A DNA stretch of 49,287 bases from Patescibacteria group bacterium (GTDB taxonomy: Bacteria > Patescibacteriota > Minisyncoccia > Phycocordibacterales > UBA918), in contig JABAZV010000016.1 in assembly GCA_018608435.1 (NCBI GenBank), forward strand, positions 783 to 50,069, written 5' to 3'. Shown here piece after piece: positions 33,799 to 40,414 of this stretch. Position numbers and translations under genes: made by a program. The notes under the pieces are model-generated. The model saw only the letters and a program-made list of their open reading frames with translations, had not been told where the DNA came from and searched no databases. How positions within the stretch are numbered: the stretch's first letter is position 1; each line of letters starts with the position of its first letter.

Positions 33799-34668
33799 TT
33801 ACTCGACATGACCTTCATCAACATGAAAATCATATTCATCTTCTTCATGTTTGTCGTGATCATCATGATCTTCTTCTCCATACTCAACGTGCTCAGCTTC
33901 GTATTCATGCTCATGACCGTGTCCGTACTGAGAGTGCGCCAAATCTATAATTAGCGACATTCCAATAAAACCAACAAGGATCGCCAAAGTTGCGTACCAA
34001 ATATTTACATAGGTTTTCAAGTTGCCGTGAATTCGCGGTAGCATGTCGCTCGCGCCCAAGAACAAAAGTGCACCGGCAGCCAAACCTGTGAGCACCCACA
34101 CCCACTCGCCTCCTTCATTTGACACAAACAACGTGAGAGCAGTACCAACCACTACAGCTGATGATGAAAGTAAGTTACGCATCGCAGCTTGCCACCTTGT
34201 ATATCCAGCACGAATAAACACACCAAACTCCACAATCTCTTGCGGAATCTCATGCAGCGCAAGACCAATAGCTGTTGCAATTCCCACAGAAGGATCGATT
34301 AAAAATGCTCCGCCGAGAATAATACCGTCAGCCAGATTATGAAACGCGTCACCTACAAGCAACAGTCCCGCTGAAGTTTTACGGTCGCACTCCTGATCAC
34401 CAAGAGCGTGAAATCGTTTGTGTAGAAACTGCGCAAATACATAAAAAGCGATGAAGCCAACTGCCACAGCTACCCCGCCCCACTTGGGCGCAGCGGCGAG
34501 TGTTTCTGGTATCAGTTCAAGCAATACTAAACTTAAGAACATGCCAACCGCCACCGGTATGACAAACCGCTCGATACCCACCAAGCCTTTGTGACCTCCA
34601 AAAACGAACGCGCCAGTAAGTGACACAGCAGCCACAGCACAAGCTGTAAGCAAAGCTTCAATAAACAT
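33799..34668 (-). CDS. ZIP-family metal transporter
   Basis: 289 residues with eight membrane helices. TM4 has HNLADGIILGGAF and TM5 has ALHEIPQEIVEFGVF, the His/Asn/Asp/Glu binuclear metal site of ZIP proteins (Zn2+, Fe2+ or Mn2+ uptake). The C-terminal tail is rich in His, Asp and Glu (HSQYGHGHEHEYEAEH...), a metal-sensing or buffering tail; such tails more often occur between TM3 and TM4. Divergent from a Fur-family gene and sharing matching operator boxes with it, so metal control is likely. Confidence 0.95.
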   Translation of the reverse strand: MFIEALLTACAVAAVSLTGAFVFGGHKGLVGIERFVIPVAVGMFLSLVLLELIPETLAAAPKWGGVAVAVGFIAFYVFAQFLHKRFHALGDQECDRKTSAGLLLVGDAFHNLADGIILGGAFLIDPSVGIATAIGLALHEIPQEIVEFGVFIRAGYTRWQAAMRNLLSSSAVVVGTALTLFVSNEGGEWVWVLTGLAAGALLFLGASDMLPRIHGNLKTYVNIWYATLAILVGFIGMSLIIDLAHSQYGHGHEHEYEAEHVEYGEEDHDDHDKHEEDEYDFHVDEGHVE

Positions 34669-34691
34669 AGAGAATGGTTAAATGTATAAAC

Positions 34692-34705
34692 GCAAATTAT
34701 TTGCA
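34692..34705. promoter_or_regulatory. Fur-type box 1 (ZIP side)
   Basis: GCAAATTATTTGCA with flanking C gives a 7-1-7 inverted repeat (CGCAAAT-T-ATTTGCA). It lies just after the minus-strand -10 TATACT (34712-34717) of the ZIP gene, over its expected transcription start. Confidence 0.7.
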
Positions 34706-34706
34706 A

Positions 34707-34735
34707 TTGCGAGTATAACAAAGTTTTGCTACAAT
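34707..34735 (+). promoter_or_regulatory. Promoter of the Fur-family gene
   Basis: TTGCGA (34707-34712), 17 bases, TACAAT (34730-34735). It overlaps the opposing ZIP promoter (TTGCAT - 16 - TATACT on the minus strand). The track start TTG 34726 lies inside this promoter, so the coding start must be later. Confidence 0.6.
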
Positions 34736-34749
34736 GCAAATCACTTGCA
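34736..34749. promoter_or_regulatory. Fur-type box 2 (fur side)
   Basis: GCAAATCACTTGCA with preceding T gives TGCAAAT-C-ACTTGCA. It matches box 1 at 12 of 14 positions and covers the predicted transcription start of the Fur-family gene. The box starts are 44 bases apart, about four helix turns. Confidence 0.7.
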
Positions 34750-34806
34750 CTAATGGAATGGTGCGAAAAACATTCTGTTGGTCACTATTTTATTATCGCA
34801 AAAGTT

Positions 34807-35184
34807 ATGAACATTAAACTCACCAAAAAACGCCAAGCCATACTCGACCTGTTAAAGTCACACCACAGCACCATGAGTGCGGCTGACATACACACGACCC
34901 TCCAAGAGATGGACCTCGTTACTATCTACCGCACCCTTGATCTATTCACCAAAGAAAAAATAATTAAACAATTTCACCTAGCAGGAGGACAGGCACAATA
35001 CGAATACCAGTCAGAGCCACACCACCACGCTGTGTGTGTCACCTGCGAAAAAGTATTGCACTTCAAAGCTCCTGACGAAAAACTAAAGAAGCTACTCGGT
35101 ATTACTGACTTTGAAGTCGACGAGATAGAAGTAACTGTCAAAGGTACGTGTACTAAGCACGAAGTTATCAAATCACAAAAATAA
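34807..35184 (+). CDS. Fur-family metal-responsive regulator
   Basis: 125 residues from ATG 34807 (MNIKLTKKRQ). Winged helix with SAADIHTTL and the Fur-type recognition helix DLVTIYRTLDLFTKE, then the metal-binding stretch HHHAVCVTCEKV. The first CxxC of the structural zinc site is present; the second is reduced to a single Cys (GTCTKH). Which metal it senses cannot be read, but the divergent ZIP gene suggests zinc (Zur-like), iron or manganese. The track start at 34726 is rejected because it lies in the promoter. It probably represses itself and the ZIP gene. Confidence 0.92.
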   Translation: MNIKLTKKRQAILDLLKSHHSTMSAADIHTTLQEMDLVTIYRTLDLFTKEKIIKQFHLAGGQAQYEYQSEPHHHAVCVTCEKVLHFKAPDEKLKKLLGITDFEVDEIEVTVKGTCTKHEVIKSQK

Positions 35185-35206: not shown

Positions 35207-35611
35207 ATGCAAAACAAAAAAATAATCCCTGTACTAGTGGTAATCGTAGTTATAGCTGTCGCGTATTTTCTTATATCACAAAATGAAGTAGTTGCACCCA
35301 ACGAAACAGATGTGGTGGTGGCTGAAGAAATTGATGAAAATGTAAATGAGGGGAAAAATGAACCAATAACACCAATTGATAAAGCAAGTATAGAAGCACT
35401 AGATCCGCCTCCGATTCCAGATCAAATCGGAAATAATATCATCATCGGCATGACAACCGCCGAGGCAGAAGCTTATGCAGCAGCCAAAAACATCACGTTC
35501 CGTATTGGATTAATCGATAGTGAGTTCCTTCCACTGACCGCTGAATATCTTCCTGGTCGTATAACAGCCGAGATGAACGATGGTGTAGTGACTGACTTCT
35601 CAGTGGAGTAG
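35207..35611 (+). CDS. Anchored single-module inhibitor-like protein
   Basis: 134 residues: an N-terminal membrane anchor (IIPVLVVIVVIAVAYFLI), an acidic Pro-rich linker, and a C-terminal module of about 55 residues (IGMTTAEAEAYAAAKNITF, LPGRITAEMNDGVVTDFSVE). The module resembles peptidase-inhibitor I78/potato inhibitor I-like repeats (GLTxxEAxxxA...FR...D.E...T.DY.PGRI...V.dG.V). Two more copies occur in the protein at 39431. Peptidase inhibition is inference. It follows the Fur-family gene by 22 bases and could share its transcript. Confidence 0.7.
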   Translation: MQNKKIIPVLVVIVVIAVAYFLISQNEVVAPNETDVVVAEEIDENVNEGKNEPITPIDKASIEALDPPPIPDQIGNNIIIGMTTAEAEAYAAAKNITFRIGLIDSEFLPLTAEYLPGRITAEMNDGVVTDFSVE

Positions 35612-39430: not shown

Positions 39431-40414
39431 ATGAAGTCAATCAAACTATCTCAAACTCCCTTAATACTTTTCGGCACCTGCTTAGCACTTTTGTCAGTCT
39501 TTGCACTAGCAGCTCTACCTCAACCAGCCTCAGCCCTCAGCTGCCTCAACCCGATCGAAATGATCCCTCTCTACGCAACTGACGACTCATACACAGTAGC
39601 TGTCATAGAAGCTGTTTCAATCGAAACCGAAGGCGACATGCACGATCAAGAAGTTATAGCGCAAGAAGTATTCAAAGGTGAACTAAGTACAAACGCAACA
39701 GTAAGTTTTGCTTATGATGAAACTTGGAGCTACCTATGTGCTGGTACGCCAGCTGAAGCAGGAAGCAAAGCGCTGTACGTAATACGAGACAACCAAGTTG
39801 TTCAAGTGTTTACACCAGACTCTGAATTTTCTCAAACGCTATCTACAGAAATTGAAGTTCCAATTTACAAACCAGTTGATAAGCCGGTTATGGAACCCGA
39901 GACTCCAAGCCAAACAGAAATTGATGAAGAAGAGAGAAAAGGTCTCATGAAGCAAATCATTGTTTTACTGCAAAAACTCGTAATTCTGCTCAGCGGATCA
40001 ATTGAAGAAATTAAAGTAGCAGAGCCGCTGGAAAGCTATGTCGGAATGACCACTATCGAAGCAGTAGCCTACGCTGATAGTAAGGATGAATTATTCAGAG
40101 TAGTAGAAATAGATGGCGTGCCGCAAGCAGTAACTGAAGATTACCGAATCGGCCGCATCAACGCCGCTGTTGAAAACAATGTTGTAACTTCATACACCGT
40201 CGAAGGTCAAGAAACTGAAGATACTCTCGAATACATCGGACTCACCGCAACCGAAGCAGAAGATCTAGCCGAGGCTAATGACGTAATGTTTAGAGTCGGT
40301 ATGATCGACGACGAACCACTCCTGGTCACCATGGACTACGTTCCAGGCCGCATCACCGCCACAATCAAAAACGATATTGTGGTTGACTATACGGTTGAAG
40401 GAGGAGATGTGTAA
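39431..40414 (+). CDS. Secreted protein with two inhibitor-like modules
   Basis: 327 residues. A signal peptide (FALAALPQPASA) ends near residue 36. Residues about 37-140 form a Cys-containing beta-rich domain (LSCLNPIEM, AQEVFKGELS, YLCAGTPAEAG, KALYVIRD) that looks like a TIMP/NTR-type OB fold. A helical linker (MKQIIVLLQKLVILLSG) follows, then two modules (about 196-252 and 262-322) homologous to that in the 35207 protein (YVGMTTIEAVAYAD; YIGLTATEAEDLAE ... MDYVPGRITATIKND). Both halves recall protease inhibitors; function inferred only. Own terminator downstream. Confidence 0.72.
   Translation: MKSIKLSQTPLILFGTCLALLSVFALAALPQPASALSCLNPIEMIPLYATDDSYTVAVIEAVSIETEGDMHDQEVIAQEVFKGELSTNATVSFAYDETWSYLCAGTPAEAGSKALYVIRDNQVVQVFTPDSEFSQTLSTEIEVPIYKPVDKPVMEPETPSQTEIDEEERKGLMKQIIVLLQKLVILLSGSIEEIKVAEPLESYVGMTTIEAVAYADSKDELFRVVEIDGVPQAVTEDYRIGRINAAVENNVVTSYTVEGQETEDTLEYIGLTATEAEDLAEANDVMFRVGMIDDEPLLVTMDYVPGRITATIKNDIVVDYTVEGGDV

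Follow-up and report, generated by a model that had tools for sequence, protein, structure and literature searches.

Zur, the zinc uptake regulator, is a Fur-family protein whose 7-1-7 boxes are palindromes overlapping the promoters of its targets, and genes for ZIP and ZnuABC importers and COG0523 proteins are its standard targets (PMC6103462). More than one Zur box per promoter is known, as at znuA of S. coelicolor and yciC of B. subtilis (PMC6103462). In Cupriavidus metallidurans the ZIP importer gene zupT belongs to the Zur regulon (PMC6103462, Table 3). The box of a second relevant regulator, the nickel uptake regulator Nur, is tTGCaa-N5-ttGCAA (PMC3919588). Regulation in Patescibacteria is almost unstudied, and full-text literature searches retrieved no account of a Zur-type regulon in these bacteria. 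Here we describe a 49,287-nucleotide stretch of Patescibacterial DNA (the window) in which a ZIP-family importer gene lies divergent from a fur gene, with two boxes in the 138-bp gap between them. The locus resembles Zur systems in its Fur-family protein, in palindromes that overlap promoters, and in the ZIP, ZnuABC and COG0523 genes associated with the box in relatives. It differs from them in the arm sequence of the boxes, in a protein that lacks the Cys of the N2OS site and is closer in sequence to PerR and Fur than to E. coli-type Zur, and in a regulon of one promoter region in the window's genome; whereas zupT is one of several Zur targets in C. metallidurans, ZIP-fur is here the whole recognizable regulon. 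We consider it about 75% probable that the boxes serve as the operator for an autoregulated repressor of the Fur family that is Zur-like and responds to zinc. An autoregulated Zur-type operator is a known kind of system; the protein variant is unusual.

The ZIP-fur gap: boxes and predicted promoters

The features of the locus, in window coordinates, are as follows.
33799..34668, minus strand: ZIP-family metal importer of 289 aa with a His/Asp/Glu-rich C-terminal tail (PF02535, 84.6 bits).
34691..34705, no strand: box 1, 7-1-7 operator CGCAAATTATTTGCA, at the predicted ZIP transcript start; position conserved in relatives.
34707..34735, plus strand: predicted fur promoter, TTGCGA-17-TACAAT; TTGCgA and TAnaAT largely conserved in relatives.
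34712..34740, minus strand: predicted ZIP promoter, TTTGCA-17-TATACT; AGTATA, the complement of the -10, largely conserved.
34735..34749, no strand: box 2, 7-1-7 operator TGCAAATCACTTGCA, overlapping the fur -10/start region and the ZIP -35; conserved in relatives.
34807..35184, plus strand: Fur-family regulator of 125 aa (PF01475, 74.3 bits against a cut-off of 23.1).

The box centers are 44 bp apart, and 12 of the 14 arm positions agree between the boxes, the near-identity that the first-pass annotation had reported. That annotation also placed box 2 correctly, while box 1 begins one base to the left of the 34692 it had given. The predicted promoters are sigma-70-like, face to face, and overlap one another. 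The predicted fur -10 ends on the first base of box 2, the ZIP -35 lies inside box 2, and the predicted ZIP start falls at the edge of box 1. Taken together, the two promoter positions would put the ZIP -35 and the fur start within box 2, and box 1 at the ZIP start, an arrangement that fits the earlier proposal that each box covers one of the divergent transcript starts, insofar as the starts are correctly predicted.

A scan of the whole genome for the operator had also been proposed. In the 949-kb assembly (97.9% complete) only two sites lay within one mismatch of TGCAAATNAYTTGCA, and both are the boxes in the ZIP-fur gap. The reversed pattern, used as a control, gave one site in the same genome at similar stringency. 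With a background of 1-10 such sites per genome, the chance of finding two in the 138-bp gap is about 1e-8 to 1e-6. Sites with two mismatches in this genome were mostly intragenic, and the few intergenic ones did not adjoin metal genes. Judged from these matches, the regulon in the window's genome is one promoter region.

Conservation of the boxes and their association with the importer

The best matches in named collections were from Candidatus Kaiserbacteria and other Paceibacterota; the nearest named relatives are Candidatus Kaiserbacteria, in keeping with the Patescibacterial host that had been assumed. Among the 49 genomes of the same GTDB family, a protein search turned up 25 close members of the Fur subfamily, the window's included, of which the others are 41-69% identical to the window's protein. 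Two boxes were present at every locus in these genomes with ZIP opposite fur. The first-pass annotation had staked its operator on conservation in relatives with the same gene pair, and the retention of the boxes in all such relatives supports a Fur-family operator with ZIP as its likely target. The distances between box centers, in counts that take in one znu locus (L025), were 43-45 bp at nine loci, 48 bp at two and 37-38 bp at five. Since the spacing varies, cooperative binding is not implied; with no single helical phase maintained, two dimers acting independently seem more likely than a fixed array. When eight intergenic regions were aligned, the boxes and promoter hexamers stood out as conserved islands. 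Forty-three collected sites gave the consensus TGCAAATNATTTGCA, with positions 2, 3, 5, 11, 13 and 15 invariant, a sharpness somewhat inflated by the fact that the sites were partly picked by pattern. The operator consensus put forward earlier is better written in this form, in which position 6 may be R and position 10 may be Y. Across the order, the exact two-box pattern was found in only 2 of 397 genomes, since exact matching is too stringent and the Fur subfamily is nearly confined to the family group. On this comparative evidence the two boxes are a genuine, evolutionarily conserved operator.

The presence of the box depended on the regulator. A box lies upstream of a zinc-type importer in each of the 25 Fur-subfamily genomes of the family, which belong to Candidatus Kaiserbacteria and its close relatives. 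For ZIP, a box within 200 bp upstream was found in 23/23 genomes with the Fur subfamily, versus 0/9 genomes without any PF01475 hit (Fisher, 4e-8); these counts, made within the GTDB family, allow at most two mismatches, mostly 0-1, and omit the ZIP of G047, whose upstream region is cut by a contig end. ZnuABC carries the box in the two Fur-subfamily genomes lacking a regulated ZIP, G019 and G011, where znuA-znuC-znuB occupies the ZIP slot opposite fur with its box or boxes (L096, L097). Other ZIP paralogues in Fur-positive genomes had no box. The box was also found at two more ZIP loci adjoining a more distant Fur, in G010 (L045) and in G015 (L094), where it precedes a fur-ZIP pair.

Eight genomes have fur at another place; it lacks a box there while the importer retains one or two, and therefore the box travels with the importer. 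Loci with ZIP apart from fur and with the box or boxes at ZIP are L085, L089, L090-L093 and L095, and the importer box of G038 is a two-mismatch site. The gene upstream of a displaced fur is often one that we take, from its translated sequence, to be an htpX-like protease. At L029, L032, L035 and L043, fur is apparently just downstream of such a gene and has lost its own box. Exact intragenic boxes in G018 and G039 (L080, L081, L086, L087) are taken as chance. In G033, in which neither Fur nor ZIP was detected, exact intergenic boxes were seen at two places (L083, L084).

Similar boxes near the start of fur were also seen in Fur-ZIP pairs or fur-ZIP/cobW operons at L123 (Dojkabacteria), L159 (Woesebacteria) and L173 (unclassified), the first two in Patescibacteria. 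These loci suggest a wider Patescibacterial zinc regulon.

The Fur-family protein

The regulator is the only Fur-family protein encoded in the window's genome. Its AlphaFold (AF2) model (pLDDT 85) is a confident Fur fold, nearest to PerR, Fur and Zur structures, and the predicted fold is that of the Fur/PerR/Zur group; the putative 7-1-7 inverted-repeat operator overlapping the target promoters is likewise of the Fur-family kind. The protein is short and begins immediately ahead of the winged helix's first helix. Residues invariant in the 25 members include E66, H72, H73, H74, C77, C80, H85 and C115. C77, C80 and C115 are its only Cys residues, so that the four-Cys structural zinc site (CxxC ... 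CxxC) is absent from 25/25 members, which have one CxxC and the lone C-terminal C115; a His near C115 is frequent, not invariant. Nor was the Cys-based N2OS sensor site of E. coli and actinobacterial Zur found, the sensor-loop position being Glu66. When the protein is aligned to PerR, E66 falls at Asp85, H72 and H74 at His91 and His93, and H85 at Asp104, in the ligand numbering of PerR. Among family models, those of PerR and Fur gave the protein its highest scores and that of E. coli-type Zur a poor one; the score with PRK11639, the sole Zur equivalog listed in NCBIfam, was 22.4 bits against a cut-off of 167. Given the Cys-free sensor position, the three Cys and the fold match, the protein would act as a Zur while falling outside the canonical Zur class.

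The fur ATG of most close relatives lies 1-5 bp after box 2, and therefore their fur mRNA would be nearly leaderless. The window has an in-frame insertion of its own, about 54-56 bp, after box 2 (34750-34804). An in-frame ATG at 34753 stands at the ancestral start place and would add 18 aa; the insertion being in frame, fur may carry this N-terminal extension, and its start may be ATG 34753 (143 aa) or ATG 34807 (125 aa).

It is quite possible, though we stop just short of calling it probable, that all of the following hold jointly: a distinct subfamily of Fur zinc sensors nearly confined to Kaiserbacteria-type Patescibacteria, of about 117-125 residues, with no N-terminal helix, three Cys in the structural site and a sensor site free of Cys (Glu66, His72-74, His85); control of zinc import through an operator that is nonetheless of the Nur type; a whole regulon made up of a single divergent promoter; and a fur mRNA that has almost no leader and begins within the fur operator itself.

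The metal sensed and competing readings

The metal is not readable from the box because the box core, half-site included, is that of actinobacterial Nur, and naming the metal from the box was dropped. The same box with different metals across phyla is a warning against naming any Fur-family regulator from its box. The genes that carry the box point to the metal. The PF01297 binding proteins of the GTDB family were assigned to putative zinc and manganese types from their loop and ligand pattern. A box was present at 5/6 zinc-type ZnuA genes (long His-rich loop) versus 0/8 genes for manganese-type proteins (short loop, Mn-type residues) (Fisher, 0.003); G019 has one binding protein of each type, with boxes at the zinc type only. 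This is a natural contrast within the same genomes, which indicates the metal on sequence evidence alone. Of the COG0523/CobW genes in the 26 genomes checked, the three clear ones are all box-linked, one after ZIP in G030, one after fur in G024 and one at a divergent box in G024. The box is thus found at the kinds of genes, ZIP or ZnuABC and COG0523, that Zur controls. Zinc is the best reading of these associations and the likely sensed metal.

Several points sit awkwardly with a zinc-responsive repressor: the best model scores are with PerR and Fur and that with E. coli-type Zur is poor, none of the three Cys is at the canonical Zur sensor Cys position, the operator core is identical to that of a nickel regulator, and ZIP proteins can carry several metals. 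The same operator and repressor might sense manganese, in the manner of Mur, with ZIP chiefly a manganese importer. The Glu, rather than Zur's Cys, at the position aligned to PerR Asp85 would suit such a sensor, as would the promiscuity of which ZIPs are capable, but no box was found at any of the eight Mn-type binding-protein genes, and COG0523 genes are box-linked; we regard manganese as unlikely. (The alpha-proteobacterial Mur box is similar and is not used here as evidence.) Sensing of nickel, or of another metal such as Fe or Co, draws its strength from the operator, since the core TGCAA-N5-TTGCA matches the Streptomyces Nur box (PMC3919588), and mycobacterial Nur-like loci carry TGCAAGTGACTTGCA. 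In Mycobacterium, a Fur homologue has TGCAARTNAYTTGCA or a one-mismatch copy about 140-156 bp upstream at L146, L160, L167 and L177, and an apparent NicT-type nickel transporter lies opposite at L167, so that this mycobacterial Fur and box are probably Nur and its box. Against this, the Kaiserbacteria box lies upstream of zinc-type importers and COG0523 genes, and no gene for nickel transport, Ni/Fe SOD or other nickel function was seen beside it; iron would further have to do without FeoB, which was found in none of the 25 Fur-subfamily genomes. We consider this group of metals distinctly unlikely.

A peroxide sensor of the PerR type, controlling metal import incidentally, is suggested by PerR being the top match among solved structures and NCBIfam models, though at scores well under the family cut-offs. 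The solved relative that scores best, both in sequence and in Foldseek E-value, is PerR of Bacillus subtilis (2fe3), which shares the winged-helix and dimerization domains. The window's protein, however, lacks its extra N-terminal helix, has only one C-terminal Cys, and has Glu for Asp85 and an invariant His, H85, for Asp104. PerR needs Asp104 for its iron-dependent peroxide reaction, and the one-promoter regulon includes no catalase, peroxidase or other peroxide-defense target. We find a peroxide sensor quite improbable. That the boxes are chance palindromes or merely conserved promoter sequence is scarcely credible: the boxes lie in an AT-rich region and adjoin promoter elements, but they are unique genome-wide, they accompany ZIP in 23/23 versus 0/9 genomes, and they follow ZIP to other locations and have also passed to znuA. 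Chance palindromes as such were ruled out by the genome-wide scan, the control pattern and the relatives.

Under the zinc-responsive repressor that we favor, a metal-bound dimer would sit on each TGCAAATNATTTGCA box when zinc is sufficient. Together the two dimers would cover the ZIP -35 and start and the fur -10 and start, turning zinc import off and keeping synthesis of the repressor itself in check. As zinc drops, the dimers would lose their metal and leave the DNA, and ZIP and fur would both be expressed. DNA binding, zinc as co-repressor and the transcript starts are what we infer from sequence, as is repression, from the position of the boxes. Most likely, then, the operator lets an ultra-small bacterium reduce its zinc import once the metal is in sufficient supply. 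The result is a short operator with strong comparative support and, in a genome of less than a megabase, a metal regulon of one promoter.

Two further observations concern metal genes elsewhere and the window itself. In G024, a genome of the Kaiserbacterial family with a distant Fur, exact boxes occur at 1990 and 4526 of L082 (G024:C49:3500-10500), upstream of a nicotianamine synthase gene (PF03059, 3.5e-51) and between genes for a His-rich COG0523 GTPase and a P-type ATPase; this locus may represent a Patescibacterial zinc-starvation regulon that includes a metallophore. In the window, ORFs 35207-35611 and 39431-40414 have in common a repeat unit of about 55 aa (GMTTAEAEAYA...DYxPGRITA...VVTDFTVE), one copy in the former and two in the latter, with a weak likeness to potato inhibitor I / I78 peptidase inhibitors (E 0.19-0.27).
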